Positions 6,655 to 53,306 of a stretch of DNA of 64,000 nt are shown piece by piece; positions within the stretch are counted from its first letter, which is position 1, and every line of letters starts with the position of its first letter. The stretch is taken from the NCBI RefSeq assembly GCF_014208105.1, contig NZ_JACHMQ010000001.1, positions 7,564,001 to 7,628,000 of the forward strand. The letters are read 5' to 3'. The DNA is from Actinomadura coerulea (GTDB lineage Bacteria; Actinomycetota; Actinomycetes; Streptosporangiales; Streptosporangiaceae). A model generated the notes under the pieces. That model saw nothing but the letters and a program-made list of their open reading frames with translations. It had not been told where the DNA came from and did no database searches. The position numbers and the translations under genes are program-made.

Positions 6655-6661
6655 GGCGGAA

Positions 6662-6667
6662 AAGATA
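6662..6667 (-). promoter_or_regulatory. -10 element of leaderless kinase gene
   Basis: TATCTT (read on the minus strand) ends seven bases before the kinase ATG. That spacing puts the transcription start at or next to the start codon, and no Shine-Dalgarno is present. Confidence 0.5.
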
Positions 6668-6731
6668 CCGGAGTAGCCAGCCGGTCATCGGGGAGACTTC
6701 ATCACTAACGCGAATTTTGGCCCAATACTGT

Positions 6732-6807
6732 GACCTCCCGCGGGGAAACCGCCGGGGACCGCCTCCCGGCGGCCCCGGGCGGGGGCCGCCGGCGGCCGCG
6801 GGAGGTC
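6732..6807 (-). terminator. Terminator of the class I fumarase gene
   Basis: 12-bp outer stem, GACCTCCCGCGG (6732-6743) against its complement (6796-6807), enclosing further GC-rich inverted repeats. The right arm overlaps the fumarase stop codon. Confidence 0.6.
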
Positions 6808-8446
6808 AGCGCCTGCCGATGCTCAGGACGGGCCCGGTGGTGTCGGCGAAGAAGTCCTCGCCCTTGTCGTCCACGACGATGAAGGCCGGGAAGTCCTCGA
6901 CCTCGATCTTCCAGACGGCCTCCATGCCGAGCTCCGGGTACTCCAGGACCTCGACCTTCTTGATGCAGTCCTGCGCGAGGCGCGCCGCCGGGCCGCCGAT
7001 CGAGCCGAGGTAGAAGCCGCCGTGCTCCTCGCAGGCGTCGGTGACCTGCTTGGACCGGTTGCCCTTGGCCAGCATGACCAGGGAGCCGCCCGCGGCCTGG
7101 AACTGCTCGACGTAGGAGTCCATCCGGCCGGCCGTGGTCGGGCCGAACGAGCCCGACGCGTAGCCCTCGGGCGTCTTCGCCGGGCCCGCGTAGTAGACGG
7201 CGTGGTCGCGCAGGTACCGCGGCATCGGCTCGCCCGCGTCCAGCCGCTCCTTGATCTTGGCGTGCGCGATGTCGCGCGCCACGACGAGCGGGCCCGTCAG
7301 CGACAGCCGCGTCCTGACCGGGTACCGGGTCAGCTCGGCGCGGATCTCGTCCATCGGGCGGTTCAGGTCGATCGCGACGACGTCGTCGTCCAGGTGCTCG
7401 TCGGTGGTGTCGGGCAGGTACTGGGCGGGGTCGGTCTCCAGCCGCTCCAGGAACACGCCCTCCGCGGTGATCTTGGCGAGGGCCTGCCGGTCGGCGCTGC
7501 ACGAGACGGCGATCGCGACCGGGCAGGACGCGCCGTGCCGCGGCAGCCGGATCACCCGCACGTCGTGGCAGAAGTACTTGCCGCCGAACTGCGCCCCGAT
7601 CCCGAGCTTCTGCGTCAGCTCGAACACCTGGAGCTCCAGCTCCAGGTCGCGGAACCCGTGCCCGAGGGGCGAGCCCTCGGTGGGCATCGCGTCCAGGTAG
7701 TGGGCCGAGGCGTACTTGGCGGTCTTCAGCGCGTACTCGGCGGACGTGCCGCCCACGACGATCGCCAGGTGGTACGGCGGGCACGCGGCCGTGCCCAGCG
7801 AGCGGATCTTCTCCTCGAGGAAGGACATCATCCGCTTGGGGTTCAGGACGGCCTTGGTCTCCTGGTAGAGGTACGACTTGTTGGCGCTGCCGCCGCCCTT
7901 GGCCATGAACAGGAACTTGTAGGCGTCGCCGGGCGCCGCGTACAGCTCGATCTGCGCGGGCAGGTTCGAGCCGGTGTTCTTCTCGTCCCACATCGTCACC
8001 GGCGCCATCTGCGAGTAGCGCAGGTTCAGCTTCGTGTAGGCGTCGTACACCCCGCGCGAGATGTGCCTCTCGTCGTCGCCGTCGGTCAGGACGTGCTGGC
8101 CGCGCTTGCCCATGACGATCGCGGTGCCCGTGTCCTGGCACATCGGCAGGACGCCGCCGGACGCGATGCCCGCGTTCTTCAGCAGGTCCAGCGCGACGAA
8201 CCGGTCGTTCGGGGACGCCTCGGGGTCGTCCAGGATCCGGCGGAGCTGCGCGAGGTGCGCCGGACGCAGCAGGTGGGCGATGTCGCGCATGGCGGTCTCG
8301 GTGAGCAGCCGCAGGGCCTCCGGCTCGACCTGCAGGAACGTTCGCCCGTTCGCTTCGAACGTCGAGACCCCGTCGGAGGTCAGGAGCCGGTAGTCGGTCT
8401 CGTCCGGGCCGAGCGGAAGCAGGTCGGTGTAGGAGAACTCAGGCAT
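6806..8446 (-). CDS. Class I fumarate hydratase (iron-sulfur)
   Basis: 4Fe-4S fumarase of the single-chain FumA/FumB type: an N-terminal alpha region (fumerase family; [18 protein letters not shown] holds a likely cluster Cys) and a C-terminal beta region (fumerase_[18 protein letters not shown]). Other cysteines that could ligate the cluster are in GTAACPPYH and KYFCHDVR. Length is 546 from ATG 8446, normal for this class. The start is coupled to the upstream EamA gene by TGAGATG, so both are likely one transcript. Having both an oxygen-labile class I and a stable class II enzyme close together is notable. Confidence 0.93.
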
Positions 8447-8447
8447 C

Positions 8448-9389
8448 TCAGGCAGATCCTCGCGCGATTCCGATGGGGGCCGCCTCACAGGTTACGGGCT
8501 CGGCGGGCGCGGGCTCACGGGGGGCGACCCGGGCGCGCAGGCCCACCACGACGCCCGCGGCGACCAGGGCCGCGCCCGCCAGATCGGCCGGTTCGGGCCG
8601 GTCGATGCCGAGCGCGACGGTCGTCACCACCGCGCTGATCGGGATCAGGCCCGCGCACAGCCCGGCGCGGTCGGCCCCGAGCCGCCCGATGGCGTCGTAC
8701 CAGAGCAGGAACGCGATCGTGGTGACGATGATCGACAGGTAGGTGAAGCCGGCCAGCTCGCCGGCCGTCGGGACGCGCAGCAGCGCCGTCCCGTCCGCGA
8801 CGAGGCCGGCCGCCAGCAGCATCGGGACGGCCAGCGCGGCGGAGTAGGCCGAGACCCGCAGGGGCCCGAGGCGCGGCAGCAGCGGCACGGCCAGCAGCGA
8901 GAAGCCCACCTCCCCGGCGAGGGCGCCGAGCGAGAGCAGCAGCCCGCGGGCGCTGCCGCTGCCGAGGCCGTTCGCGAGCGCCGCCCCCGCCGCCACCACG
9001 CAGGCCGCCGCGATGATCGCCGGGGCGGGGCGCCGGCCGTCCAGCAGCGGCCCGACGACCGCGAGCACGATCGGGACCGTCGCGATCACCGTGCCGATGG
9101 TGGCCGGGCTCGTGTCCCGGGTGGCCAGCACGATGCAGACGTTGAACGCGACCAGCCCCGTCCCCGCGAGCGCCGTCAGCAGCAGCCAGTCCCGCGCCGA
9201 GGGGCGGCGCGCGGGCCCTCCGGCGAGGCGCGCCACGGCCAGCAGGACCAGCGCGGCCGCGGCGTACCGGACCGCCTGGCCGCCGAAGACGGGATAGCCG
9301 GAGATGGTCGCCGAGACGGCGGTCAGCGTGCCGACGAGGGACATCGCGGCCGCGGCCCCCGCCATGCCGCGCCTTTGGGAGGTGTTCAT
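8448..9389 (-). CDS. EamA/DMT family transporter
   Basis: Integral membrane exporter of the drug/metabolite superfamily with two five-helix EamA repeats; 313 residues. Hydrophobic segments cover nearly the whole chain, for example [29 protein letters not shown] and [18 protein letters not shown], the last with the typical [17 protein letters not shown] turn. Substrate unknown; relatives export amino acids and other metabolites. It is divergent from a MocR regulator, the usual pairing for a regulator and its target exporter. Start ATG 9389 is preceded by GGG-rich purines; the longer open frame would enter the regulator's operator. Confidence 0.88.
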
Positions 9390-9410
9390 GGACTGAACGC
9401 TAGGGCGCGG

Positions 9411-9466
9411 TTGGTCCAGCGGACAGAGCCAATCAAACCCCTTGAACGCGGACCAATACGCTGTCC
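9411..9466. promoter_or_regulatory. Putative MocR operator/divergent promoter region
   Basis: Between eamA and the MocR gene lie TTGGTCC (9411-9417) and its inverse GGACCAA (9450-9456), and also GGACAG (9421-9426) and its inverse CTGTCC (9461-9466). The arrangement of two interleaved inverted pairs ending right at the GTG of the regulator suggests an autoregulated site that also controls eamA. Confidence 0.5.
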
Positions 9467-10921
9467 GTGACGTCCACACCGCCCCTTGACGCTGAGAGTC
9501 ATGTGACCGACCTTCATCTTTCTCTCGACCGGTCCGCCGGGCGGCTGGCCGCGCAGATCGCCGCGGGCTTCCGCGCGGCGGTGCGCTCCGGCCGGCTGAC
9601 CGCCGGGACCCGGCTGCCGTCGAGCCGTGATCTGGCCCGTGACCTGGACGTCTCCCGCGGTGTCGTCGTCACCGCCTACGAGCAGCTCACCGCCGAGGGC
9701 TTCCTGATCGCCCGGCGCGGCGACGGCACCCGCATCGCGCCGCTGGCCCGCCCCGACGAGGGGGCCGGCCCGCCTCCCCGGCCGCCGGCGCGGCCGGCCG
9801 AGCCCCGGGCGGAACCGGCGGTCCTGTACGACCTGTCGCCGGGGCAGCCCGACCTTTCGGCGTTCCCCCGCGAGCGCTGGATCGCCGCCGCCCGCGCCGC
9901 GCTGCGCACCCTGCCGCACGACGCGCTCGCCTACCCCGACCCGGCCGGCGTCCCGGACCTGCGGGCCGAGCTCGCCTCCTACCTCGGGCGGGTCCGCGCC
10001 GCGCACGCCGACCCCGGCCGGATCGCGATCATGAACGGGGTGGCGCAGGGCCTGTCGGGCCTGCTCGGCCAGCTGCGCGCCGACGGCCACACCGCGCTCG
10101 CCGTCGAGGACCCCACCAGCGTCCGGCAGCTGCCGATGCTGGCCGCCGCCGGGGTCCGCACCGTCCGCGTCCCCGTGGACGAGGAGGGCCTGGACGTCGC
10201 GGCGCTCGCCCGCACCCAGGCCCGCGCCGTGCTCGTCACTCCCGCGCACCAGTACCCGACCGGCGTCGTGCTGTCCCCGGCGCGGCGCGCCGCGCTGATC
10301 GCCTGGGCGCGGGACGCGGACGGCGTGATCCTGGAGGACGACTACGACGCCGAGTTCCGCTACGACCGCGACCCGGTCGGCTGCCTCCAGGGCGTCGACC
10401 CCGACCGGGTCGTCCTCCTCGGGTCGGTCAGCAAGTCGCTAGCCCCCGCCCTTCGCCTCGGCTGGGCCCTCGCGCCGCCGTTCCTCGCCGAGGGCCTGCG
10501 GGAGCACCGCACCCACACCGACCTCGGCGCGCCCGTCCTGGAGCAGTACGCGCTGACGGAGTTCCTGCGCGGCGGGGGCTACGACCGGCACCTGCGCACC
10601 ATGCGGAGGCGGTACCGGGCCCGGCGGGACGCCCTCGCCGGCGCGCTCGCCGAGAACCTGCCCGGCGCCAGGGTTCACGGCGTCTCAGCGGGCATCCACC
10701 TCTATGTGGAACTGCCGGGCGGGTGCGACGAGGACGAGGTCGTGGAGCGCGCCGCGCGGGCCGGGGTGTCGGTCGCGGGCGCCCGCGCCATGTGGTCGCC
10801 GCGCCGCGCCGAGGACGCGCCCCCCGCGCTCGTCCTGGGCTACGCGGCTCTCCCCGAGCCGCGCCTGGTCAAAGCCGCGCAACTGCTGGGTCAAGCGGTT
10901 GCTCACGGTGGTGGAGGGTAA
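9467..10921 (+). CDS. MocR-family PLP-dependent transcriptional regulator
   Basis: N-terminal GntR winged helix (about residues 20-90; TRLPSSRDLARDLDVSRG recognition region, then YEQLTAEGFLIARRG wing) fused to a fold-type I aminotransferase domain (about 120-480). Seen in the latter: NGVAQGL, TPAHQYPTG, LEDDYDAEFRYD and the PLP-lysine segment GSVSKSLAPALRLGW. MocR proteins bind pyridoxal phosphate and control neighbouring genes; here the divergent EamA exporter is the obvious target. The start may be GTG 9467, which directly abuts the operator repeat, or GTG 9503. Length 484 is typical. Confidence 0.9.
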   Translation: MTSTPPLDAESHVTDLHLSLDRSAGRLAAQIAAGFRAAVRSGRLTAGTRLPSSRDLARDLDVSRGVVVTAYEQLTAEGFLIARRGDGTRIAPLARPDEGAGPPPRPPARPAEPRAEPAVLYDLSPGQPDLSAFPRERWIAAARAALRTLPHDALAYPDPAGVPDLRAELASYLGRVRAAHADPGRIAIMNGVAQGLSGLLGQLRADGHTALAVEDPTSVRQLPMLAAAGVRTVRVPVDEEGLDVAALARTQARAVLVTPAHQYPTGVVLSPARRAALIAWARDADGVILEDDYDAEFRYDRDPVGCLQGVDPDRVVLLGSVSKSLAPALRLGWALAPPFLAEGLREHRTHTDLGAPVLEQYALTEFLRGGGYDRHLRTMRRRYRARRDALAGALAENLPGARVHGVSAGIHLYVELPGGCDEDEVVERAARAGVSVAGARAMWSPRRAEDAPPALVLGYAALPEPRLVKAAQLLGQAVAHGGGG

Positions 10922-42629: not shown

Positions 42630-42677
42630 GAAAGGGGCGGCCCCGCGGTTCTCGGAACCGCGGGGCCGCCCCCTTTC
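42630..42677. terminator. Bidirectional terminator between typA and the FHA gene
   Basis: Long stem GAAAGGGGCGGCCCCGCGGTT (minus its last base, 42630-42650) with its complement at 42656-42677 (one bulged C), with AAA on one side and TTT on the other. Confidence 0.9.
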
Positions 42678-42692
42678 TCATGTACGTGCCGT

Positions 42693-44024
42693 TCAGTTCA
42701 GCTGGACGGTGCCCGTGACGTCGGCGGCCAGGCGGAGCTGGTCGCCGTCGCGGAGCGGGGCGTCCACGCCGCGGGGGAGCCGCTCGCCGTTGACGAACGT
42801 CCCGTTGGTGGAGCCCTCGTCGCGCACCCAGGCCGTCCCGGACGGGTCGAGCCACACCGTCGAGTGGCGCCGCGACACGTTGTCGTACTGCGTGAACGTG
42901 GCCGCCACCGGCGACTGGCCCGCGTCGCGGCCGAGCACCAGGTGCTGGCCGACCGACACCTTGAGCTCGCCCGTGGGGAACTGGACGCGCAGGACGGGCG
43001 TGCCCTTCTGCGGCAGCGGGCGCAGGCACGAGTCGCACTGCGCGGCGCCCGGGTTGGCCAGCACCGCCTCGCAGTACGGGCACATGAACGCCGTGCTGTC
43101 GGGTGCGGGCGACCGCTGCTGGCCCTGGTTGTGCTCGTGCGGCAGCAGCGTCGCCTCGCGGCCGTGCGGCAGTTGCGGCGCCTGGCCTCCGTGCTGCGGC
43201 TGGCCCCCGTGTTGCGGCTGGCCCCCGTGTTGCGGCTGACCGTACTGGGGCTGGCCGTGCTGCGGCTGCCCGTGCTGCGGCTGACCGTACTGGTGGTCGG
43301 CCGGGCCGGGCTGCGGGGCGCCGTACTGCTGGCCCCCCTGCTCCTGCGGGGCTCCGTACTGCTGCTGCGGCTGGTACTGGTCCTGCGGCTGCTGCTGGTA
43401 GGGGTCGGGCGCCGGCTGCTGCGGCTGCGGCGCGCCCCACTGGTCCTGGGGCTGCTGCGGTGCGCCCCACGGGTCCGCGGGGGGCTGCTGCTGCTGCGGC
43501 TGCCCGTACTGCGGCTGGCCGTGCTGGGGCTGGCCCTGCTGCGGCTGGCCGTACTGGGGCTGGCCGTGCTGGCCCTGCCCTTGCTGGTCATGGGACTGCT
43601 GGGGCATGGGCGGGCCCCAGGCGTCCGGCTGCTGCGGCTGCGGCGCGCCCCACTGGTCCTGGGGCTGCTGCGGTGCGCCCCACGGGTCCGCTGGAGGCTG
43701 CTGCTGCTGCGGCTGCCCGTACTGCGGTTGCCCCTGCTGCGGCTGGCCGTGCTGGGGCTGGCCATACTGCGGCTGCCCGTGCTGGCCCTGCCCGTGCTGC
43801 GGCTGGCCGTACTGGTGGTCGGCCGGGCCGGGCTGCGGGGCGCCGTACTGCTGGCCCCCCTGCTGCGGCCCCGGGGGCGGAGGTATCCGCTGCGGTTCGT
43901 ACCCGCCCGGACCCTGCTGGTGAGCGCCGCCTCCGGCGCGCGCCAGGTTCGCCCCGCAGCTCATGCAGAGCAGATCGCCCGGCTGGAACGGTTCGTCGCA
44001 GACCGGACAGTTCAAGGTCGCCAT
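42693..44024 (-). CDS. FHA-domain protein with two zinc ribbons and a Gln/Pro-rich repeat linker
   Basis: 443 residues. N-terminal zinc ribbon (C6-C9 and C20-C23: NCPVCDEP, LCMSCGANL), a roughly 260-residue low-complexity linker of repeated QYGQPQHGQ/PADPWGAPQ units, a second ribbon (CPYCEAVL, CDSCLRPL) and a C-terminal FHA domain (about 345-443; LVLGRDAGQSP, NVSRRHSTVWL, DEGSTNGTFVNGERL). FHA domains bind phosphothreonine, so the Ser/Thr kinase of the same operon is the likely partner. It overlaps the radical-SAM gene by 13 bases. The two zinc ribbons plus FHA make this an adaptor rather than an enzyme. Confidence 0.93.
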   Translation of the reverse strand: MATLNCPVCDEPFQPGDLLCMSCGANLARAGGGAHQQGPGGYEPQRIPPPPGPQQGGQQYGAPQPGPADHQYGQPQHGQGQHGQPQYGQPQHGQPQQGQPQYGQPQQQQPPADPWGAPQQPQDQWGAPQPQQPDAWGPPMPQQSHDQQGQGQHGQPQYGQPQQGQPQHGQPQYGQPQQQQPPADPWGAPQQPQDQWGAPQPQQPAPDPYQQQPQDQYQPQQQYGAPQEQGGQQYGAPQPGPADHQYGQPQHGQPQHGQPQYGQPQHGGQPQHGGQPQHGGQAPQLPHGREATLLPHEHNQGQQRSPAPDSTAFMCPYCEAVLANPGAAQCDSCLRPLPQKGTPVLRVQFPTGELKVSVGQHLVLGRDAGQSPVAATFTQYDNVSRRHSTVWLDPSGTAWVRDEGSTNGTFVNGERLPRGVDAPLRDGDQLRLAADVTGTVQLN

Positions 44025-44761
44025 GACACATCCCCCGAGCGCACCCCGGCGCGGTCGAGCCTCGACGTGAGGTGCTCCATGTCACCTCTTCGCGGGATCC
44101 CGATGTAGTACACCCGCTTTCCCTCCGGCCCTTCGTCCACGGACACCTGTACTCGGGGCCCTCTTCCTTCAGTGTCGCCGACGCCGGCCACTGCCCCGTA
44201 CCGCTCGCGTCCCAGGGGGGACACCGGCACGACACGCTGGTTGGCCGACCCCCTCCAGAGTAGGGAGCCGTCCCCGGGGTGTCGCCCCCCAGGGTTGAGC
44301 CGGTCGACGTACGGCCCCGTGACCACGGCGTCACACATGTCCACGATCTCGCGCGTCACAGCGGCGCGCGAGAGCCGAGAGTAGACATATCCGCTGTAAA
44401 CCAATATGTCCAACGCAATCGTCTCACGGTCGCGGGTCTCCCGCCACGCGCGGATCCCCCGCACCAGGGCCGCCAGCGCGGCCGGCTGCTGGAACGGTTC
44501 GCCGCCCGAGATGGTCACCCCGTCGACCGGTTCGGGAAGGGACGCGAGCCATCCTAGGACCGCCTCGACGGGGATCGCCCGGCCCGGGTCGGCGTCCCAC
44601 GTGTCGCGGGACAGGCAGCCGTTGCAGTGCAGCGTGCAGCCCTGCGTCCAGATCCCCGCCCGCGTCCCGGGGCCGAGTGTGGTCACCGGGTAGTGCGCCT
44701 TGGCGAGCAGGAGCGTCTCGCCGGAGCCGTCTCCGGCCCCGGGGGAGCGGCCCGCGCTCAC
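44012..44761 (-). CDS. Radical SAM / 4Fe-4S single-cluster protein (NrdG-activase-like)
   Basis: 249 residues. Cluster motif IWTQGCTLHCNGC (Cys 42, 46, 49) in CxxxCxxC spacing, preceded by GPGTRAG, then ISGGEPFQQPAALAAL (SAM-binding GGE), and MCDAVVTGPYVD. This is the layout of small activases (NrdG/PFL-activase-like) that make a glycyl radical on a partner or modify a peptide. No NrdD-like target is seen here. It starts at GTG 44761, overlapping the AAA+ gene stop (GTGA), so it is made together with it. The C-terminal 90 residues do not match the common NrdG and may bind another operon protein. Confidence 0.88.
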   Translation of the reverse strand: MSAGRSPGAGDGSGETLLLAKAHYPVTTLGPGTRAGIWTQGCTLHCNGCLSRDTWDADPGRAIPVEAVLGWLASLPEPVDGVTISGGEPFQQPAALAALVRGIRAWRETRDRETIALDILVYSGYVYSRLSRAAVTREIVDMCDAVVTGPYVDRLNPGGRHPGDGSLLWRGSANQRVVPVSPLGRERYGAVAGVGDTEGRGPRVQVSVDEGPEGKRVYYIGIPRRGDMEHLTSRLDRAGVRSGDVSWRP

Positions 44762-46671
44762 TGGAGGTCCAGGTGCACGATGCTGCCCTCGCGCCGGATA
44801 CCCGTCACCGTGACCTTCTCGTCCGGGACGAGCTCCCGGTCGAACAGCGCGCGCGCCAGCGGGTTGACGAAGTGCGACTCCAGCGCCATGCCGATGCCGC
44901 GCCCGCCCTTGGCGAGCTCCTCCGTGCACCACTCGCGGAGCGTCTGCAGCGCGTCCCCCTTCACGGCGAGGACGAGCCGGTGCTCCTCGGTGACCCGCCG
45001 GCAGATGTTCGCGAACTGCAGGTCGAAGATCTTGTGCGCGGCCTCGCCGGAGATGAAGTCGAACACCACGATGTTGTCGCCGAACCGGTTGAGCAGCTCC
45101 GGCCGGTTCAGCACCGTCGTGAAGTGGTCGGCGACGGCGCCCTTGATGCGCTGCTCGACCTGCTCGTAGGACATGTCCGGTGTGATGTTCTGCACACGGT
45201 CGGGGGCCCCGTACCCGGCCCCGGCGCCGGCCGTCAGGTCGCGCCCCGGCACGAACATCCCGAGGTTGGAGGTGAAGATCAGGATCGACTCGGAGAAGTG
45301 CACGGTGTTGCCGCGCCCGTCGGTGAGCCGCCCGTCCTCAAGGATCTGCAGGAACTTGTCCAGGATCCGCGGGTGCGCCTTCTCGATCTCGTCGAAGAGG
45401 ATCACCCGGAACGGGTCCTCCCGGACGGCGTTGGTGAGCTCGCCGCCGGCCTCGTGCCCCACGTACCCGGGCGGCGACCCGATCAGCCGGTCGCCGGAGC
45501 CCTCCCCGGAGAACTCGCTCATGTCGAAGCGCAGGTAGGCCGACTCGTCGCCGAAGACCAGCTCGGTGATCGCCTTGGCCAGCTCCGTCTTGCCGGTGCC
45601 GGTCGGGCCCGCGAAGAACAGCACCCCGCGCGGGCGGCTGCCGGACCTGGTCGCCTGCGCGCCCGACAGCCCGAGCACCGCCCGCTTGAGGATGTCCAGC
45701 GTCTTGGTGACCGCCTGCGGCTGCCCGATCACCCGCTCGGGGACGCGCTTCTCGCCGTCCAGCACCCGGCGCCGCAGGTGCCCGCGGCTCCACGGGTTGT
45801 CGAGCACGCCCAGCTTGTAGGTGCGGACCGCGTCGGGCAGGTCGGCGAGGTCGACGTTGCGCTCCTTCGCCAGCCGGGTCACCTCGATCATCGACTGGAG
45901 GGTCAGCCCGTCGGCCTGCTCGGCGAACGCGTCGCACGCCGCGGCCGCCACCTCGTCCGACCCGACGTCGCTCACCCCGAACGCGCGGGCCAGCAGCCGC
46001 GCGGTCTCCTGCCGGTCGCCGAGATGCGGGCGCGGGATCGTGATCTCGCGGATGTTCTCGTTGTCGGCCGTCAGCCACGGCGGCAGGTCGCCCGGCCGCT
46101 CCACCAGCCAGACGACCGGGTTGTACAGCGGCTTCGGCCGCGCCCCCGTGACCCGGACGGGACGCGCGCTGCGCGACAGCTTCGCGCAGAACCGGAAGAA
46201 GTCGCGCTCGGCCGGCTCCAGGTCCGTCGGGGTCCGGGCGATGCGCGACGCCGAGTCGATCACGAACGCGGCGCGGACGTTCTCCTGCGGACGGGCGACC
46301 GCGGCCAGATGCCGCGTCAGCCCCTCCAGCGACGGCTTCTCGTCCGCCTTGACCTTGCCGAGCAGCGACTCCGCCGCCGACGCCGCCTCGCCCCCGGACG
46401 GCTCGTTCGGGCCGGGGACGATCTGCAACCCGTCGACCGGGTCGTAGACGGCCATGAACGACGCGCCGCTGGAGCGCAGCGTCTCCCACAGCAGGGCCCG
46501 CAGCGGCAGCAGCACCGCCGGGCCCCCGTCCGGCGACGGCGCGAGGAAGCTGTCGTGCAGGTTGCCCGACAGGACGTACTGGGAGTGCACCGAGAGGGTC
46601 GCGTCGAGCTCCCGGATGAACGGCGGCCACCCCTGCAACCGCCCCCCGAGGGTCGGCGAATCAATGCTCAT
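44758..46671 (-). CDS. ClpB-like AAA+ ATPase, with a degenerate first AAA region
   Basis: 637 residues. The C-terminal half (about 310-637) is a full ClpA/B-type AAA+ module: Walker A FAGPTGTGKTELAKAI near 350, pore-loop-like SPPGYVGHEAGGEL, Walker B RVILFDEIEKAHP, sensor SNLGMFVPG, and a D2-small-type C-terminus. The N-terminal half (about 1-300) looks like an AAA-type region without Walker A (AFVIDSASRIART, PVVWLVERPGDLPPWL, then IPRPHLGDRQETARLL). Thus one active ring and one pseudo-domain are expected. It lies between the coiled-coil gene (38 bp upstream) and the radical-SAM gene (overlap). Function unknown; remodelling of an operon partner is likely. Confidence 0.88.
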   Translation of the reverse strand: MSIDSPTLGGRLQGWPPFIRELDATLSVHSQYVLSGNLHDSFLAPSPDGGPAVLLPLRALLWETLRSSGASFMAVYDPVDGLQIVPGPNEPSGGEAASAAESLLGKVKADEKPSLEGLTRHLAAVARPQENVRAAFVIDSASRIARTPTDLEPAERDFFRFCAKLSRSARPVRVTGARPKPLYNPVVWLVERPGDLPPWLTADNENIREITIPRPHLGDRQETARLLARAFGVSDVGSDEVAAAACDAFAEQADGLTLQSMIEVTRLAKERNVDLADLPDAVRTYKLGVLDNPWSRGHLRRRVLDGEKRVPERVIGQPQAVTKTLDILKRAVLGLSGAQATRSGSRPRGVLFFAGPTGTGKTELAKAITELVFGDESAYLRFDMSEFSGEGSGDRLIGSPPGYVGHEAGGELTNAVREDPFRVILFDEIEKAHPRILDKFLQILEDGRLTDGRGNTVHFSESILIFTSNLGMFVPGRDLTAGAGAGYGAPDRVQNITPDMSYEQVEQRIKGAVADHFTTVLNRPELLNRFGDNIVVFDFISGEAAHKIFDLQFANICRRVTEEHRLVLAVKGDALQTLREWCTEELAKGGRGIGMALESHFVNPLARALFDRELVPDEKVTVTGIRREGSIVHLDLQ

Positions 46672-46709
46672 CTAGTCACTCCACTCCGTCCGAGCGCCCC
46701 CCGCACACC

Positions 46710-47837
46710 TCACGTGTGACGCTCGCGGGAGCGTTCGCGTTGGGCGGCACGGCCCCTAGTCTGCCGTGCCTCCGCCGAGACGGGCAGCTCACGCACTCCG
46801 GGCTCCAGCCGCCACGCCACGTCCGAGCGGATCCCCTCGCCGGCCAGGCGCTCGCGCGCCGCCTCGAACGCCTCGCACCACTCCCGTTCCCGCTCGACGT
46901 CCACCCGGCGGTCGTCCTCGCTCTCGGCGGGCCGCTCGCGCACCATCGAGGCGCGCACGTGCGCGGCGTCGTCCACGCGCATCCGCACGCTGTGGTCGGG
47001 CCAGGCGCCCTTCGTCAGCGTCACGGTGCCGTCCTCGGCCGTCAGCGTCTCGAACCCGGCCTGGACCTCGTACCCCATGTCCTCGAACGCGCCCGTGATG
47101 GAGTCGAGGACGTAGCGGCGCTCGGCCTCGGCCTGCTCGGCGGCGTCGCGCTCGGCCGCCCGCCGCCGCTCCTCGTCCCGCCGCTCGCGGGTGCGGCGGT
47201 TGGCGTCCTGGATCCGCAGCCGCACCTCCTGCAGGACGCCCTCCGCGTCGGCCGGCGTCGCGGCCCCGGCCAGCAGCCGCGCCGCCTCCGCGACCTCCCG
47301 CCGCTCCGCCTCCCCGGCGTCGGGCAGCAGCCGCGCCAGGATCTTCTCCAGGTGCTCGCGGACGTCGCCGGTGTGCGGCGGCGGTGGCGCGCCGCCGCCG
47401 GCCTCGGCCGTCAGCCCCTCGGCGGGGACGGCGAAGATCTGCGCGCCGACCTGGGCGGCGAGGTGCTCGGAGAGGCGCCGTTCGGCCTCGTCCAGGACGG
47501 GGTCGGTCGCGGCGCACCAGGCGGTCAGCTCCGCGGCCGACCGCTCGGCGGGGTCGAGCCGGCCGGGCAGCGGCACGTCCGCGCCGATCTTCGCGCGGGT
47601 CTCGGCGAGCGCGGCGATGCGCGCGTTGCGCTCCACCGTCTCGCGCAGCGCCCGCTCGTGCGTGCGGACCTCGGCGAGCGCCGCCGCCCGCGCCTCGGCG
47701 CGCCCGGCGGCGAGCGCGGCCAGCGCCTCCGCGCCGCGCCCGGCCAGGCCCGCGCCGTGCCCGAGCAGGCGGGTCATGCCGAGGCTGAGCACCACCGCCG
47801 CGTCCAGCGCGATGTCCGCGTCGATCCCGCTGCTCAT
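46710..47837 (-). CDS. Coiled-coil protein of unknown function
   Basis: 375 residues, rich in Ala, Glu and Arg with no clear enzyme motif. ATG 47837 overlaps the stop of the kinase gene (ATGA). Residues about 55-230 and 250-320 are heptad-rich coiled coil (RLRIQDANRRTRERRDEERR region), and a small alpha/beta end (YVLDSITGAFEDMGYEV, then VTLTKGAWPDHSVRMRV) may be a folded module. No membrane segment. I do not recognise the family. Position makes it a likely adaptor between the kinase and the AAA+ ring. Confidence 0.8.
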   Translation of the reverse strand: MSSGIDADIALDAAVVLSLGMTRLLGHGAGLAGRGAEALAALAAGRAEARAAALAEVRTHERALRETVERNARIAALAETRAKIGADVPLPGRLDPAERSAAELTAWCAATDPVLDEAERRLSEHLAAQVGAQIFAVPAEGLTAEAGGGAPPPPHTGDVREHLEKILARLLPDAGEAERREVAEAARLLAGAATPADAEGVLQEVRLRIQDANRRTRERRDEERRRAAERDAAEQAEAERRYVLDSITGAFEDMGYEVQAGFETLTAEDGTVTLTKGAWPDHSVRMRVDDAAHVRASMVRERPAESEDDRRVDVEREREWCEAFEAARERLAGEGIRSDVAWRLEPGVRELPVSAEARQTRGRAAQRERSRERHT

Positions 47838-50167
47838 GGGGTCCCTCCGATCGTCCGTGCCTGCCGCCAGTGGTGCAGCCGCACCCCGGCCGCGACGGCG
47901 TGCGCGGCGGGGACGGCGATGAGGACGAGGACCCACAGCAGGCTCGCGACGGACGTCACGGCCGCGAGCAGGAGAAGGAACAGGAGCAGCGGCAGCGTCG
48001 CGGCGGCGAGCACGCACCCGCAGCCGCGCCGTCCGGTTCGCCGCGCGGCGCCCGACATCGTCTGGGACGCCGTCGACAGTCCGCGGCCGCCCGCGCCGAG
48101 GATGCCCGACAGCATCGCCCACGGCCCGTGGGGGAGGTAGTCCGCGCCCTGCGCGCGCGCCGCGACGACCTCGCTGCCGCACTGCACCGCCCAGGCGAGC
48201 ACGGACAGGACGGCCAGAACGCCGAAGGAGACGCCCGAAGAGGAGCTGTGCAGGCCGACCGATGCCGTGCCGTCGTCCTCGCCGCCGCCGAACAGCGACC
48301 CGATGACCCAGCTGCCCAGGAGCCAGAACAGCAGCAGCGGCGACGTCAGCGCGACGGCCTTCGCCATCGCCGGGCCGCGGCCGGCGAGCCGCTGCCGCTC
48401 GCGGTCGGCCCGGTGGGTGCGCAGCGCCTCGTCGCGCTGTTCGGCGGCGTGCCGCTCGCGCGTCAGCGACTCGCTCTCGGCCACGGCCTCGGGTGCGGCG
48501 CGCGCCACGGCGAGCAGCCGCAGCGGATCGTCGCCGGCCCCGTCCACCATCCAGGTGAACCACGGCACCGGTTCGGACACCGGCTCGCGGGCCCGGGCCG
48601 CGCCCTTGGCGATCAGCCGCGCGGTCTCCTCCGGCCGCGCTGCCAGCGCGAGCAGGGCGAGCAGCACGGCGGGCGGCTCCTCCGCGCCGGCCTCGGGCAG
48701 CCGGCCGGCGAGGCCCGGCGGCGAGGCGGCCTGCTCGCGCAGCCAGCGCGCCAGGTCGTTCCACGCCGACACGTGCGCGCGCCACTGGTCGTCGACCCGG
48801 GCCAGCTCCTCGCCGCCCGCGAAGCCGGCGAGCACGGGCAGCAGGCGGTGCTCCCACAGCGCCCGCCCGATGAGGCAGGCGGTGCGGTGGTCGGGATGGC
48901 GCCGGTCGGCGGCCAGGCCCGCCAGCCCGGGCAGGTCGGCGGCGGTGATCCGGCGGCCGAGGTAGTGCGGGGGCATCGCCGGATCCAGCCACCGCACGAG
49001 GTGCAGGAGCTTGACGTCGGACGGCAGCGTCGTCATGAGGTGGCCGTCGACGAGCGCGATGCGGCTGTCGTCGGGTATCTCCGCGAGCCAGTCCCGCAGG
49101 CTCCGCCACGCCTCGCCGGTCTCGCCCCGTCCGAAGAAGTACTGGGCGGCGTGGTCCCAGTTCTCGACGAGCGCGCGCGCCAGCTCGGTCCTGCCGGTGT
49201 AGCGCCGGCCCCTGAACGGCAGCCCGGTGCCCGCCGGGACGCTCTCCTCCGCGACCCGCGGTGAGCCGCCGTCCAGCCACTCCCGTACCTGCTCGCCCGT
49301 CCATCTCGCGCGCGGGTCGCGGGTCAGCAGCCCCTGGCAGAGCAGCCGGAGCCGCGGCTCGGGGACGTCGTCCGCGCTGACCGGCCGCGTCGCGAGATGG
49401 TCGACCACGACCGTCTCGCTCAGCCCCTGGAACGGCGGCCGGCCCGTCGCCAGCTCCCGGACGATCATGCCGAGCGACCACCAGTCGCGGGCCGGCGACA
49501 CCTGGCCGGACAGCGACTCCGGCGCCGCGTAGGCCAGCGTCCGCGACGACGAGGCGAACACCACGCTCTGTTCGAGCACCCGGCTCAGCCCGAAGTCGGC
49601 GATCGCGAGGCGCAGCGGATCCCGGGCCAGCACCAGGACGTTCTCGGGCTTGAGGTCCCGGTGGACGATGCCGGCCCGGTGCAGCGCCCGCAGACCGCCG
49701 GCGAGCTGCGCGGCGATCTCGGCCACCGCCTCCTGCGGGAGCGGCCCCTCGTCCATCAGCGTCCGCAGGTTGCCGTCCGGCGCGTACGCGGCGACCTCGT
49801 AGTCGCGGCCGTCGGCGTGCCCGGTCTCCAGGATGCGCAGGACGTTCGGCGCCTGCAGCGCGGGCAGCTTCGCCCACACCTCCCGGTCGGCGCGGTACCC
49901 GCGGCGGAAGATCTTCACCACGAACTCGGCGCCGTCGTCGTCGCGCACCAGGAGCAGGTCGGACTCGGCGCCCTGCACGGGAAGCTCGGCGACCACGTCG
50001 TACCGCTCGCCGAGGACGGCCGGCAGCCGCATCAGCGGGTCCCCGGGACCGTGCCCCTCCCGCCGGGTCGCCGACGCCGGGCGCGGCCCGGGCACTCCCG
50101 CGTCCCGCCGCGTCGCCCCGGCGTCCCGCCGGGTGTCCCGCGGCGGGGCGCCATCGAACTCGCCCAC
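47834..50167 (-). CDS. Ser/Thr protein kinase with a long middle region and C-terminal membrane helices
   Basis: 777 residues from GTG 50167 (GGGACGG upstream; 11-bp gap from DUF4282). Kinase domain at about 55-300: VVKIF lysine, HRDLKPENVL, DFGLSRV, and GMIVRELATGRPPF; the glycine loop is weak (PVQGAESDLL). A helical middle part (about 310-600) has no named domain. Several hydrophobic segments lie in the C-terminus (ALTSPLLLFWLLGSWVIGSLF, GVLAVLSVLAWAVQCG, LAAATLPLLLFLLLLAAVTS, VLVLIAVPAAHAVAAG). It thus differs from PknB-type kinases, which have one helix and an external sensor. The FHA protein of the operon is the natural reader. Confidence 0.9.
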   Translation of the reverse strand: MGEFDGAPPRDTRRDAGATRRDAGVPGPRPASATRREGHGPGDPLMRLPAVLGERYDVVAELPVQGAESDLLLVRDDDGAEFVVKIFRRGYRADREVWAKLPALQAPNVLRILETGHADGRDYEVAAYAPDGNLRTLMDEGPLPQEAVAEIAAQLAGGLRALHRAGIVHRDLKPENVLVLARDPLRLAIADFGLSRVLEQSVVFASSSRTLAYAAPESLSGQVSPARDWWSLGMIVRELATGRPPFQGLSETVVVDHLATRPVSADDVPEPRLRLLCQGLLTRDPRARWTGEQVREWLDGGSPRVAEESVPAGTGLPFRGRRYTGRTELARALVENWDHAAQYFFGRGETGEAWRSLRDWLAEIPDDSRIALVDGHLMTTLPSDVKLLHLVRWLDPAMPPHYLGRRITAADLPGLAGLAADRRHPDHRTACLIGRALWEHRLLPVLAGFAGGEELARVDDQWRAHVSAWNDLARWLREQAASPPGLAGRLPEAGAEEPPAVLLALLALAARPEETARLIAKGAARAREPVSEPVPWFTWMVDGAGDDPLRLLAVARAAPEAVAESESLTRERHAAEQRDEALRTHRADRERQRLAGRGPAMAKAVALTSPLLLFWLLGSWVIGSLFGGGEDDGTASVGLHSSSSGVSFGVLAVLSVLAWAVQCGSEVVAARAQGADYLPHGPWAMLSGILGAGGRGLSTASQTMSGAARRTGRRGCGCVLAAATLPLLLFLLLLAAVTSVASLLWVLVLIAVPAAHAVAAGVRLHHWRQARTIGGTP

Positions 50168-50178
50168 AGCCGTCCCGT

Positions 50179-50688
50179 CTAGCCCTTGTCCTTGATGGCC
50201 CGAAGATACTCGCTGATCTTGAACTGGTTGACGACGAACTCCATGGCGATCCGGGTCGCGAACACTCCGAAGAGCCACGCGAACGGGGACCCGAGGAGCA
50301 GCATGAGGCCGAGCGCCGCGCTGTCGTCGAGCCACGCCATCCCGTACACCGCCATCAGCAGCGAGAACAGGGTGATCGGGATCAGCGCGAGCACGTAGAG
50401 GATCTTCACCACCCGCGTGGTGATCATGGTGTCGAAGTTGAGGTCGAACAGCGCCCCGAGCAGGTTCCTCTCGCCCGGCGGGCCGGGCGGAGGCGCCCAC
50501 CCCTGCGGCGGGTCCTGGAAGCCCGAGGCAGGGCCGGGCGGGCGCGGGCCGGGGACGGAACCCGGGCCGGGGCCGGGGCCGGGGGGGAAGGGACCGGCAG
50601 GTCCGCCGGGCGGTGGACCGTAGGGCCCGCCAGGCCCGCCGGGCGCCTGCGGACGCGGAGGGTGACCAGGGTCCGGTGGGTTCGTCAT
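50179..50688 (-). CDS. DUF4282 membrane protein
   Basis: 169 residues (170 if GTG 50691 is used, which has GGAG at a good distance). N-terminal 75 residues are Pro/Gly-rich; the rest is DUF4282-like with NLLGALFDLNFDTMITTRV and two hydrophobic segments (ILYVLALIPITLFSLLMAVYG and ALGLMLLLGSPFAWLFGV) and a charged tail (ISEYLRAIKDKG). Function of the family unknown. First gene of the kinase-FHA operon. Confidence 0.88.
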   Translation of the reverse strand: MTNPPDPGHPPRPQAPGGPGGPYGPPPGGPAGPFPPGPGPGPGSVPGPRPPGPASGFQDPPQGWAPPPGPPGERNLLGALFDLNFDTMITTRVVKILYVLALIPITLFSLLMAVYGMAWLDDSAALGLMLLLGSPFAWLFGVFATRIAMEFVVNQFKISEYLRAIKDKG

Positions 50689-50830
50689 CACCGTCGTCTC
50701 CAGTGTGGGGACCGCTACACGGAGACTCTAAAGCCTGGCCCCGTCCATCGCCGGAACCCGCCGCGCGACGATCCCGTATCGCGCGGGGGTCCGGTGCGGA
50801 CGTGCGGGCCGGTGGCTCCAGGATGCTGGC

Positions 50831-50880
50831 ACCACCGGCCCGCGACGGCGCGAGGCACGGCGCGGGACCGCGCCGGTGGT
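50831..50880 (-). terminator. Hairpin at the 3' end of the 383-residue gene
   Basis: ACCACCGGC (50831-50839) pairs with GCCGGTGGT (50872-50880), whose last base is in the stop codon. Extra GC palindromes lie in the loop. The kinase operon starts about 140 bp further; TAGAGT-like sequence upstream of DUF4282 could be its -10. Confidence 0.4.
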
Positions 50881-52031
50881 CAGGCGGCCGGAACGCCCGT
50901 GGCCGGCTGCGCGGAGCGCACCTCGGCCTGGTTGGGTTTGGCCGCCAGGCCCGGGAGGTCGGTGGTCGCGGCGCGCAGCCGGGCGATGCCCTCCGCCCCG
51001 AGGTCGCCCAGCATGATGTCGTAGGCCAGGTCGCGCACCGTGTCCATGCCGACGGCCGAGTGGAGCATCGCGCCGATGGTCTCGGTGAGCACCCGCTCGT
51101 AGGCCTCGAAGTTCACCGCCTCGGCCACCGCCGGGTTCCACTCCAGCTGGTCGCCCGCCGTGACGTGCAGCTGCAGTCCGCCGGTCACCGGGTCCACCTG
51201 GTCCAGGTCGATCTCGGCGGCGACGCGGCCGCGGGCCGCCGGCGTTCCGTCGTCGGTGAACAGCAGCGCCGGAACCGAGAAGGTGACCTGCTCGGCGGGC
51301 TTGCGCGGCCGGACGGCGTTGCCGCGCGGCACCGGCGGGACGTCGACGTGGTCGAGCTGCGACAGCATCCGGAACGTCGCCAGGCCGAGGATGCTGTTGA
51401 TGGCCAGCGCCGTCGCCCGGGTCACCGTCTCCATCTCGCCGGGCTTGCGGGTGAGGTAGCCGCTGAACCCGTAGGCGATGATGCGGTCCCGGACGGGGGA
51501 GCGGAGGAAGATGCGCAGCCGGACCCCCGCGACGGGGAGCTCGAACTCGGTGTCGCCGTCGCCGGCCTCGGACCGGACGAAGCCGCCCTCCGACGGGGTC
51601 AGCTTGCCGGCGAGCGCCAGCGTCCCCTCGTTCCCGGCGCGGGTGAGGCTCAGGACGTAGAGGTCGCCGTCCAGCTCGGTGATCACTTCGTCGCCGAGGA
51701 CGACGGCCAGGGCCCGGGCCGTCTCGTTCAGGCCGGCCAGGGTCCTGCGGGGCATCCGCAGCCGCAGCTGGTTCTGCGCCGTCACCCGCCCGCCGACGGT
51801 GTTCTCGACGTGCTCGACCTCCCGCTCGGCCTGCTTGCCGGTGTAGTTGCGCAGGCTGAACGCCAGGACCTCGTTGTCCGTGCGCACCCCGCAGGTGGCC
51901 TTCAGCGCCTTCTTGGCGCTGAGCGGATACGGGGTGTCCTGGCGGACGTACTTGGTCGCGTCCACGAACACGGGGACGTCGTCGTCGAAGAGGCGCCGGA
52001 CGTAGAATTCTTCCTTGGTTTGCGCTGGCAC
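50880..52031 (-). CDS. Conserved-looking protein of unknown function (locus 2)
   Basis: 383 residues from GTG 52031 with GGAGAAGGG upstream; the frame is open for 92 further codons. Soluble, alpha/beta, no membrane segment and no motif I can name. It has acidic patches (VRRLFDDDVPVFVDA), a basic segment (LRLRMPRRTLAGL) and AVAEAVNFEAYERVLTE. Divergent from a zinc-ribbon protein gene, sharing a 270-bp upstream region, so both may be regulated jointly. Its position next to secretion locus 2 suggests a related role, but nothing in the sequence proves that. Confidence 0.7.
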   Translation of the reverse strand: MPAQTKEEFYVRRLFDDDVPVFVDATKYVRQDTPYPLSAKKALKATCGVRTDNEVLAFSLRNYTGKQAEREVEHVENTVGGRVTAQNQLRLRMPRRTLAGLNETARALAVVLGDEVITELDGDLYVLSLTRAGNEGTLALAGKLTPSEGGFVRSEAGDGDTEFELPVAGVRLRIFLRSPVRDRIIAYGFSGYLTRKPGEMETVTRATALAINSILGLATFRMLSQLDHVDVPPVPRGNAVRPRKPAEQVTFSVPALLFTDDGTPAARGRVAAEIDLDQVDPVTGGLQLHVTAGDQLEWNPAVAEAVNFEAYERVLTETIGAMLHSAVGMDTVRDLAYDIMLGDLGAEGIARLRAATTDLPGLAAKPNQAEVRSAQPATGVPAA

Positions 52032-52217
52032 TGTGCACCCTTCTCCGTGTCCTGCCACCGGCCGCGGACGGCCGGCGGTAACCTCGGCACCCGGCCGATA
52101 CCGGCCAGGTGCGGCACCGGTCGCACCTGCCGGTGTCCACTCTTCAGTGATGACCGTTTCGGGGCAGGTCGGATCGGCAAGTACCAGAGGGCCGGACGGC
52201 GACCGCCGGCGAACCGG

Positions 52218-52301: not shown

Positions 52302-53306
52302 ATGCACCAGTTGACCGATTACGTGCTGGCCGTTCGCACCACCGGTTCACCTCCGGCGATCGAAGGGGTCAAGTCGGTCGACCTTGTTCCGGGCGACGAC
52401 GAGGACGTCATCGCCGCGACCATCGCCGGCCTGCGGGCCAGCGGCCTGACCGCGGCCGACTTCCGATCGCGCGTGATCTATCTCGCGCCCGAGGACCCGA
52501 GCTGCCTCGTGCCGTACGCGGCGCTGTGCGGCTTCGCCGGCCGCCGCGTCGACGCCTACGCCGGCGGCACCGTGCTGGAGTTCTCGCGCCTGGACCCGCA
52601 GGGGGAGGGCTTCCCCGACGCGGGCCGGCCGAACGGGTACCTGGAATGGGGCCAGGTCGGCGGCGAGGAGGGGGTCCTGCCGACCGTGCAGGTCGGCTCC
52701 GGCACCCAGCGGCTCGTGACCCCGGAGGCCGTGACCGTGATCCGGTACGCGGCGCGGCTGCGCATGGTCCCGCCGGACTCGGCCCGGGACGCGCTGGCCA
52801 CGTTCGTGCTCGTCGCGGCGCTGCGGCGGCGGGCCGACGACCGGTTCCCCTACCTGTCCACGGGCGACGAGCCCGCTCCCGTCACCAAGGACGACCCGGC
52901 CCAGGGCATCGACCTGGAGAAGCTGCGGCGCGAGGCGGCCAAGTACCGCCAGGAGCTGCGGGCCGGGCGCCGCGGGGCCGACATGGTGCCGCCCGTCCCC
53001 GTCTCGCCGCACAACAAGCGGATCGCCGAGGCCAAGTCGGTGGACGTCCGGACGGTGCTGACGCGGCTCGGCTCCTCCTCCGACGACGGGAACCTGTGGC
53101 ACTGCCCGCGTCCGAGCAGGCACAGCAACGGCGACCGGAACCCCTCGATGAAGGTCTACGGGGACAACCGCACCAGGTGCCACCGCTGCGACGCCGAGAA
53201 GGTCGGCCCGATCCGGCTGGTCATCGACGTCCTGGGGGTCACTCCGGACGAGGCCGCCAGCTTCATCCTGGACTCCGACCGCGTCGTGGACATGCGTCCA
53301 GCCTGA
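52302..53306 (+). CDS. Protein with C-terminal primase-type zinc ribbon, no primase core
   Basis: 334 residues; AAAGGAGA eight bases upstream of ATG. Residues 1-200 are a soluble unknown domain. Residues about 255-330 resemble the DnaG CHC2 zinc-binding domain: LWHCPRPSRHSNGDRNPSMK then NRTRCHRCDAEKV, giving Cys, His, Cys, Cys and the NPSM element typical of CHC2. No TOPRIM or primase catalytic motif is present. It could bind DNA or RNA as a recruiter in locus 2. The spacing between the first Cys and His is longer than in DnaG. Confidence 0.75.
   Translation: MHQLTDYVLAVRTTGSPPAIEGVKSVDLVPGDDEDVIAATIAGLRASGLTAADFRSRVIYLAPEDPSCLVPYAALCGFAGRRVDAYAGGTVLEFSRLDPQGEGFPDAGRPNGYLEWGQVGGEEGVLPTVQVGSGTQRLVTPEAVTVIRYAARLRMVPPDSARDALATFVLVAALRRRADDRFPYLSTGDEPAPVTKDDPAQGIDLEKLRREAAKYRQELRAGRRGADMVPPVPVSPHNKRIAEAKSVDVRTVLTRLGSSSDDGNLWHCPRPSRHSNGDRNPSMKVYGDNRTRCHRCDAEKVGPIRLVIDVLGVTPDEAASFILDSDRVVDMRPA

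Follow-up and report, generated by a model that had tools for sequence, protein, structure and literature searches.

The analysed window is a stretch of 64,000 nucleotides from Actinomadura coerulea in which six genes occupy positions 42693-50691, all of them, like the domains and motifs located below, on the minus strand. The preliminary description had presented these genes as one co-directional set with overlaps and short gaps at the junctions; all six open reading frames were recovered at these positions and the junctions were reproduced base for base. The first gene encodes a DUF4282 protein (50179..50691; Pfam PF14110, 2.5e-18), the stop codon of which (50179) is separated by 11 bp from the GTG start (50167) of a Ser/Thr kinase (47834..50167; Pkinase, 3.4e-35). 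The kinase gene shares an ATGA overlap (47837-47834) with that of a 375 aa coiled-coil (CC) protein (46710..47837), which is followed after a gap of 38 bp (stop 46710, ATG 46671) by the gene for a 637 aa AAA+ protein in which profile matches, alignment and a fold search indicate two AAA modules (44758..46671). A GTGA overlap (44761-44758) leads to a radical SAM (rSAM) protein of 249 aa of the PFL-activase/NrdG-like single-cluster type (44012..44761; Fer4_12, 4.2e-26), and a 13 bp overlap (44024-44012) to a 443 aa FHA-zinc-ribbon protein (42693..44024; FHA, 1.7e-13). The intergenic region between the FHA gene and the convergent bipA/typA gene contains an 18-pair hairpin (42634..42672, assigned to neither strand; minus-strand MFE z-score -5.55) with T-rich flanks on both sides, which is probably a terminator shared by the two genes. 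Each operon gene gave dN/dS < 1 in three comparisons. The upstream gene at 50880-52059 and the divergent gene at 52302-53306 were rejected as parts of the operon, as both were present only in the closest relative and matched no family.

The DUF4282 protein (169-170 aa) consists of a Pro/Gly-rich N-terminus followed by the hydrophobic DUF4282 domain. Its gene is present at nearly all loci of the genus and in sister genera sometimes has a second copy placed after the FHA gene; it is missing from distant loci and is a lineage-specific addition, not a core member. The kinase is 777 aa in length from the GTG, or 732 aa from an alternative ATG at 50032, and comprises an N-terminal kinase domain (residues 76-294; 49286..49942) with intact HRDLKPEN and DFG motifs, a conserved middle region and C-terminal segments (47837..48367) whose strong hydrophobicity, read from the sequence, suggests that they probably span a membrane. 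All catalytic residues are present in the kinase of the window, and the catalytic Asp is found in 90 of the 92 homologues that have a residue at this position. It is lost in some helicase-fused kinases (loci L165 and L146), which suggests that phosphorylation is dispensable in some loci. The FHA protein begins with a zinc ribbon (a weak Pfam match), continues through a long linker rich in Gln, Pro, His, Tyr and Gly and a second CxxC pair, and ends with the FHA domain (residues 363-432; 42729..42938), in which the GR, SRRH and NG residues are present. Both domain ends are conserved across relatives and the linker is variable.

The CC protein matched no family in Pfam, NCBIfam or PADLOC, and its homologues adjoin the AAA+ gene in most loci. 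Their common feature is an unnamed C-terminal domain (residues 241-350; 46788..47117; helix, four strands, helix) containing one near-invariant cysteine, Cys321 (codon 46875..46877), which is retained in 61 of 65 homologues. Among 396 genomes of the phylum, this domain was confined to those that also carry the AAA+ gene. The AlphaFold model of the protein has a pLDDT of 80.5, and a fold search with the cysteine domain hit the spermine synthase N-domain (Z 7.4, 2.9 Å, 92 residues) and Crl (Z 6.2, 3.4 Å, 100 residues), both weakly; homology to either is not claimed, since Z < 8 possibly reflects a common arrangement.

The Pfam matches of the AAA+ protein (AAA_2, 5.7e-44; ClpB_D2-small, 1.3e-5) are both confined to its C-terminal half. 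Alignment indicates that the first module (residues 12-290; 45802..46638) has an AAA fold without a Walker A motif and with an invariant Gly36-Asn37 / Asp40 at the expected position of the P-loop, and the fold match of the structural model to ClpC/ClpB spans both modules. The ClpB-D2-like second module (residues 302-637; 44761..45768; profile matches and alignment) is intact, with Walker A (GPTGTGKT; retained in 100 of 100 loci), Walker B, a GYVG pore loop, an arginine finger and a GGRG sensor 2. The protein is thus predicted to be a two-module Clp-type ring in which the first P-loop has been lost and the second is intact. The earlier term 'ClpB-like' fits the second module but not the P-loop-less first, and identity with the ClpB disaggregase was rejected (234.8 bits against a cut-off of 1232; first module without Walker A). 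In a phage search, no record covered 80% of the AAA+ protein.

The cluster-binding motif of the rSAM protein, CTLHCNGC (44615..44638), was read in the sequence and is conserved among loci, the CxxxCxxC cysteines being present in 97 of 97. The protein keeps the activase signature GPGxR / CxxxCxxC / DTW and has an additional conserved stretch, WRGSxNQ. Its nearest solved relative is pyruvate formate-lyase activating enzyme (PFL-AE; 3.3e-16), followed by a second group of PDB relatives, QueE (7.5e-6), the substrate of which is a small molecule. The resemblance expressed by 'NrdG-like' is real, whereas NrdG identity is not supported (88.4 bits against the NCBIfam cut-off of 126.1). The suggested glycyl-radical target is unlikely: the glycyl-radical domain (PF01228) and the NrdD family (PF13597) each gave 0 matches in the genome with positive control searches, although a very divergent glycyl-radical enzyme could escape. 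With no glycyl-radical enzyme found in the genome, the rSAM protein is an orphan. That it is a true glycyl-radical-enzyme activase merely located in the operon is hence highly improbable; its family resemblance to NrdG and PFL-AE would be explained, but the missing partner, the score below the cut-off and the linkage to the AAA+ gene across phyla all speak against it. Alternatively, the rSAM protein may, in the manner of viperin, produce a small molecule instead of modifying a protein, and this molecule, a messenger or modified nucleotide, would serve as signal or effector. This would suit the place of the rSAM gene in the constant core of the module, with no glycyl-radical enzyme found in the genome, and the relationship to QueE; however, the closest solved relative acts on a protein, the activase signature is kept and viperin gave no NCBIfam match, so that we regard this alternative as improbable. 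Inside the operon, the hypothetical substrate that fits best is the cysteine domain of the CC protein. Not all branches can depend on it as a substrate, as Arg replaces the cysteine in loci L102, L103 and L111 despite the presence of the rSAM protein.

AAA+ matches were found in 24 of the 24 first-sampled genomes of the genus, with the neighbouring genes also there in the loci read, and the operon is vertically fixed in the genus, occurring beside bipA in every Actinomadura genome searched. The AAA+, rSAM, CC and kinase genes, usually with the FHA gene, are linked in Actinomycetota, Pseudomonadota, Bacteroidota and Cyanobacteriota, and the same linked set also occurs in Acidobacteriota, Synergistota and Bacillota and on plasmids, the AAA+-rSAM-CC core being present in at least six phyla besides Actinomycetota. 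Among loci selected by the rSAM protein (score threshold 150 or more), 42 of 47 contain the AAA+ gene; of the remaining five, four stop at a contig edge or close to one. Actinoallomurus has a divided operon, with AAA+-rSAM-FHA at one site and DUF4282-kinase-CC beside bipA elsewhere. Gene calls in the high-GC relatives were made with a crude script, and some starts and small genes will be wrong. The proposal that the kinase, FHA and AAA+ proteins form a functional unit is strengthened by their retention together over great distances, even after the operon split. Chance adjacency of unrelated genes that are co-directional by accident might be suspected, since actinobacterial genomes contain many runs of genes on one strand, but it is already contradicted by the linkage across phyla and the retention in trans, and its probability is negligible.

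The preliminary description had held that wide variation of the neighbours among relatives would count against it; the core proved to be constant, whereas the outer genes are swapped (PP2C, CHAT, NACHT, helicase-REase, PIN, RES). Relatives carry a CHAT protease (L107, 8e-32; L114, 7.4e-23), a PP2C phosphatase (PP2C_2, 1.5e-10) accompanying the kinase in several cases, a weak NACHT/NB-ARC match (L100) or a RES pair (3.9e-16). A kinase-DUF4011-helicase-REase occurs in Providencia, Maribacter and Rhizobium, and the helicase-bearing relatives match PADLOC PDC-S37 with up to 501 bits. A PIN protein and an MkoA-like helicase (7e-102) are carried by Moellerella plasmids, a layout also found in Acinetobacter and Leisingera, and some relatives have a vWA-looking lipoprotein with no Pfam match. 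Searched against E. coli, the Moellerella AAA+-rSAM DNA matched nothing over its full length, the only hits being to clp genes. The window operon contains no effector. Four CHAT proteins are encoded elsewhere in the same genome, far from the operon.

We consider it somewhat probable that the six genes encode a membrane-linked, phosphorylation-controlled protein-remodelling complex, representing in Actinomadura a modular conflict system of wide distribution. The operon is best read as the remodelling core of such a system, under phosphorylation control, which part of the Thermomonosporaceae has fixed among its core genes. Against this reading stand the universal presence of the operon in the genus, unlike the patchiness of a typical defence system, the effector-less operon of the window, a locus with rSAM and kinase genes but no AAA+ gene nearby (L137) and the lack of the FHA gene in several Proteobacterial loci. 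A housekeeping function, in which the operon encodes a core regulator of growth, envelope or proteostasis without a conflict role and the effectors of relatives were recruited secondarily, is a possibility to be taken seriously, if a less probable one; the membrane-linked kinase would sense the envelope, with the FHA and AAA+ proteins acting on ordinary host proteins. Presence beside bipA in every genome of the genus searched, purifying selection, the lack of an effector and the membrane association suggested by DUF4282 and the hydrophobic kinase tail favour it. However, the AAA+ tree nests the Actinomadura clade among CHAT, NACHT-like, RES and plasmid-borne nuclease forms, the distribution outside the family is sparse (5/396 phylum genomes) and second, divergent copies occur within the genus (L038, L111, L112 and L115).

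In the conflict-derived complex that we prefer, the constant core would be the AAA+ ring, the single-cluster rSAM protein and the CC adaptor ending in the small cysteine domain. The kinase would phosphorylate a partner, opposed by PP2C in relatives, and the FHA protein would read the phosphothreonine and bring the AAA+ ring to this partner. The dead first module probably docks partners while the live Clp-type second module threads protein, thereby remodelling the complex of CC protein and effector. The rSAM protein most likely performs a radical-dependent modification, irreversible or oxygen-sensitive, with the CC cysteine domain as its best candidate substrate, and this step would prime or fire the complex. 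The output in relatives would be the CHAT protease, the NACHT-like protein or the helicase-nuclease, presumably in defence; the Actinomadura operon, being without an effector, may have been co-opted as a core stress regulator or may target effectors encoded elsewhere. A more specific and rather unlikely version is a radical-gated switch, in which the rSAM protein marks the CC cysteine domain (with a thioether, a carbon-centred radical or similar) and the half-dead Clp ring, recruited via FHA to the phosphorylated partner, reads or removes the mark and so releases the effector.

The combination of AAA+, rSAM, a cysteine-domain adaptor and a phospho-signalling module is broadly distributed, plasmid-carried and unnamed in curated libraries, and the CC cysteine domain offers a specific candidate for the substrate of an orphan rSAM enzyme. 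Should the rSAM protein indeed modify the adaptor, bacterial conflict systems would have radical chemistry among their triggers, alongside phosphorylation and unfolding; if the radical-gated switch is correct, it would represent a new class of immune or stress switch that ties radical reactions to phosphorylation and to the unfolding of proteins, and Actinomadura would have fixed an effector-less form of it as core regulator. The genus-universal form, effector-less in its operon, would permit a direct test of the passage from conflict system to core gene set.

No description of the AAA+-rSAM-CC-kinase-FHA set was found in the open-licence literature, and a paper elsewhere is possible. Assignment to a known PADLOC defence family was rejected: the kinase matches are generic, those of the AAA+ protein fall in the AAA portions of PDC-M37B and DolB, and PADLOC gave no match for the rSAM, CC or FHA proteins. 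In relatives, the defence matches were limited to PDC entries, which denote candidate systems, and to Mokosh-type ones. The rSAM protein shares the single-cluster fold and signature of the PFL-AE/NrdG activases but differs in its score below the family cut-off, its WRGSxNQ stretch and the lack of a detected glycyl-radical partner in the genome. The AAA+ protein resembles ClpB/ClpC in having two AAA modules in a single chain, the second with all motifs, but its first module lacks a P-loop and there is no Clp N-terminal domain. Mokosh combines a kinase with a superfamily-1 helicase (PADLOC MkoA/MkoC). The helicases of relatives match MkoA, as in the Moellerella plasmid, and kinase-helicase fusions occur among them; however, a helicase is found in relatives only and not in the Actinomadura operon, and the PADLOC Mokosh models match neither the AAA+, the rSAM nor the CC protein. 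Defence by a kinase and an opposing phosphatase, a pairing found in several relatives, has a precedent in KKP, a tested, prophage-borne kinase-kinase-phosphatase antiphage module (PMC11341870) that is likewise based on phosphorylation but has no AAA+, rSAM, FHA or CC protein. The FtsH-type MoxR-vWA ternary conflict systems (Kaur et al., 2020; PMC7159879) show effector swapping, are enriched in multicellular bacteria and include an rSAM gene in one subset. In their AAA+ protein the first AAA domain is inactive and the second active, and the same arrangement within one chain is indicated here by alignment, model and fold search. However, the active module here is Clp-type (AAA_2) and not FtsH-type (FtsH_fam, 15 bits against 600), no MoxR or vWA family match was obtained among the operon proteins and scanned neighbours, and PMC7159879 contains no description of the CC cysteine domain. 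Furthermore, the rSAM gene, an occasional effector there, is here a constant core gene, and the kinase and FHA protein belong to the core.

The six genes of the operon, their strand and every junction proved to be exactly as given in the preliminary description when the gene coordinates were rechecked in the sequence (42693-50691, minus strand; window at 7564001-7628000 of an 8.19 Mb genome on a single contig). A hairpin of 18 pairs separates the FHA gene from the convergent bipA/typA. The upstream genes at 50880-52059 (minus strand) and 52302-53306 (plus strand), which matched no Pfam or NCBIfam family, are shared with the closest relative only.

Conserved gene order among actinobacteria, which had been proposed as a check, was observed: in the loci read, both the order and the adjoining bipA are kept through Actinomadura and several sister genera. 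The AAA+ gene was present in all 24 genomes of the genus first sampled and in every genome of the genus listed by the order-wide search, in 89 of 299 genomes across the order and in 5 of 396 across the phylum. When 84,980 species were scanned with an alignment of the radical SAM protein, 80 loci were retrieved, spanning Actinomycetota, Pseudomonadota, Bacteroidota, Cyanobacteriota, Acidobacteriota, Synergistota and Bacillota. Of the 47 loci scoring 150 or more with the profile, 42 also contain the AAA+ gene. Four of the remaining five are truncated by the end of a contig or close to it, and the fifth, L137 from a Zoogloeaceae MAG, is a real exception (radical SAM and kinase genes at 6249-9611, no AAA+ gene upstream, stretch uncut). 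The radical SAM gene is not always adjacent: in a Streptomyces-rich clade it is placed in a divergent cluster together with genes for a membrane coiled-coil protein and a lipoprotein that looks like a vWA protein. Such a cluster occurs in L102 (2843-5492), L101, L103, L111 and L121-L129, with a protein of ∼200 amino acids added in some loci; none of the three proteins had a Pfam match.

The two halves of the operon can be separated. The AAA+, radical SAM and FHA genes stand alone in Actinoallomurus (L108 and L119), and the domain of the coiled-coil protein lies elsewhere in six of the seven Actinoallomurus genomes with this arrangement; in the two such loci read (L216 and L217), DUF4282, kinase and coiled-coil genes adjoin bipA. 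Retention of both halves after the split is a stronger sign of joint function than adjacency.

The radical SAM protein carries a Fer4_12 domain with the cluster motif CTLHCNGC, and CxxxCxxC is kept in 97 of 97 linked loci. Its designation as NrdG-like held as a resemblance, but the score falls below the NrdG cut-off; the closest solved relative is pyruvate formate-lyase activating enzyme (3.3e-16), QueE being much weaker. Searches of the genome for the glycyl-radical domain (PF01228) and for NrdD (PF13597) gave no match, whereas control genomes were positive; by these two families, the protein is an orphan radical enzyme with no recognisable glycyl-radical partner.

The predicted model of the AAA+ protein (mean pLDDT 89) aligned in both modules with ClpC, ClpB and ClpA in a fold search. 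In an alignment with 33 relatives, the first module has no P-loop, with Gly36 and Asp40 invariant and Asn37 nearly so, and the second carries Walker A, Walker B, an aromatic pore loop, an arginine finger and sensor 2. The term ClpB-like thus suits the second module but not the first, and the protein is a half-dead, half-live unfoldase whose second-module motifs suggest protein threading by the ring. The kinase retains the full set of catalytic residues. The FHA protein consists of a zinc ribbon, a repetitive linker and the FHA domain; the linker (42960-43940) is a Gln/Pro/His/Tyr/Gly repeat of ∼270 amino acids that differs among species.

The coiled-coil proteins are divergent (∼20-30% identity) and have in common a C-terminal domain of a helix, four strands and a helix. 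A cysteine in the last helix (Cys321 here) is shared by 61 of the 65 homologues, which come from every phylum sampled, and it is the sole invariant column of a 28-row alignment. The exceptions are Arg in L102, L103 and L111, and the frameshifted L153. Among the 396 phylum genomes, the domain profile matched only three, each AAA+-positive. Because of the near-invariant cysteine and the matches in AAA+-positive genomes only, the coiled-coil protein is probably the leading candidate for what the radical SAM enzyme modifies or binds; the Arg residues count against this in their branch.

In a tree of 74 AAA+ sequences, made by a quick method in which long branches are unsure, the Actinomadura clade is nested in Actinomycetota. 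Its near neighbours there are L100 and L104-L107, and CHAT, NACHT-like or RES genes are present in some of these loci. Every operon gene is under purifying selection, with dN/dS of 0.13-0.26 (AAA+), 0.24-0.31 (radical SAM), 0.28-0.40 (kinase), 0.32-0.46 (coiled-coil) and higher for DUF4282. The Actinomadura operon is therefore a functional, vertically inherited form. It contains no effector gene, which is compatible with loss here as well as with gain elsewhere.

Genes added in relatives encode a CHAT protease (L107, L114 and Streptomyces), PP2C, TPR proteins, a weakly matched NACHT/NB-ARC protein and a RES-domain protein with an unnamed partner of ∼215 amino acids. This RES pair, possibly an NAD-targeting effector pair, lies near the module in L120-L129, L132, L136, L142, L143 and L153, and also in L038, L100, L102, L105, L107, L112 and L115; by our raw count, this holds for 13 of the 20 actinobacterial loci from outside the Thermomonosporaceae. 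Fusion of the kinase to DUF4011, a superfamily-1 helicase and an MTES_1575 REase domain is seen in Providencia, in Maribacter and on a Rhizobium plasmid, and such relatives matched PDC-S37, Hhe and MkoA in PADLOC. Two helicase-fused kinase domains (L165 10637-16870 and L146 9849-16049) lack the catalytic Asp and are probable pseudokinases, so the kinase fold there may be a scaffold only. On plasmids of Moellerella, Acinetobacter and Leisingera, the coiled-coil, AAA+ and radical SAM genes are preceded by genes for a helicase and a PIN-domain protein (Moellerella helicase versus MkoA, 7e-102; PIN_4, 4.6e-22). In an Acinetobacter plasmid annotated with NDM-1, these three genes are followed by one further gene each for an AAA ATPase and a radical SAM protein (L203 12709-14691). 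In Methylocaldum (L140 10028-15631), FHA, coiled-coil, AAA+ and radical SAM genes precede genes that resemble type III CRISPR (Cmr) by N-terminal sequence only.

The proposed mechanism is that the kinase, acting against PP2C where PP2C is present, would phosphorylate the coiled-coil protein or another partner, that FHA would recruit the AAA+ ring, that the ring would remodel an assembly of coiled-coil protein and effector, and that the radical SAM enzyme would modify the coiled-coil protein, thereby priming or firing the assembly. Of this scheme, only the integrity of the catalytic sites and the joint retention of the genes are established, at the level of sequence. A precedent for kinase-phosphatase defence has been tested experimentally (PMC11341870), and a constant core with exchanged effectors on mobile DNA is an established hallmark of conflict systems (PMC7159879). 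The literature searched, with partial coverage, gave no account of this gene set, which may be described elsewhere. Among described systems the FtsH ternary class comes nearest, as it likewise has an inactive-plus-active AAA protein and, optionally, a radical SAM protein; however, its defining features are partners of the MoxR and vWA types and a module of FtsH type, none of which was found in the operon. We rate the operon as a form of modular NTP-dependent conflict system with an unusual core, the set itself being apparently new.
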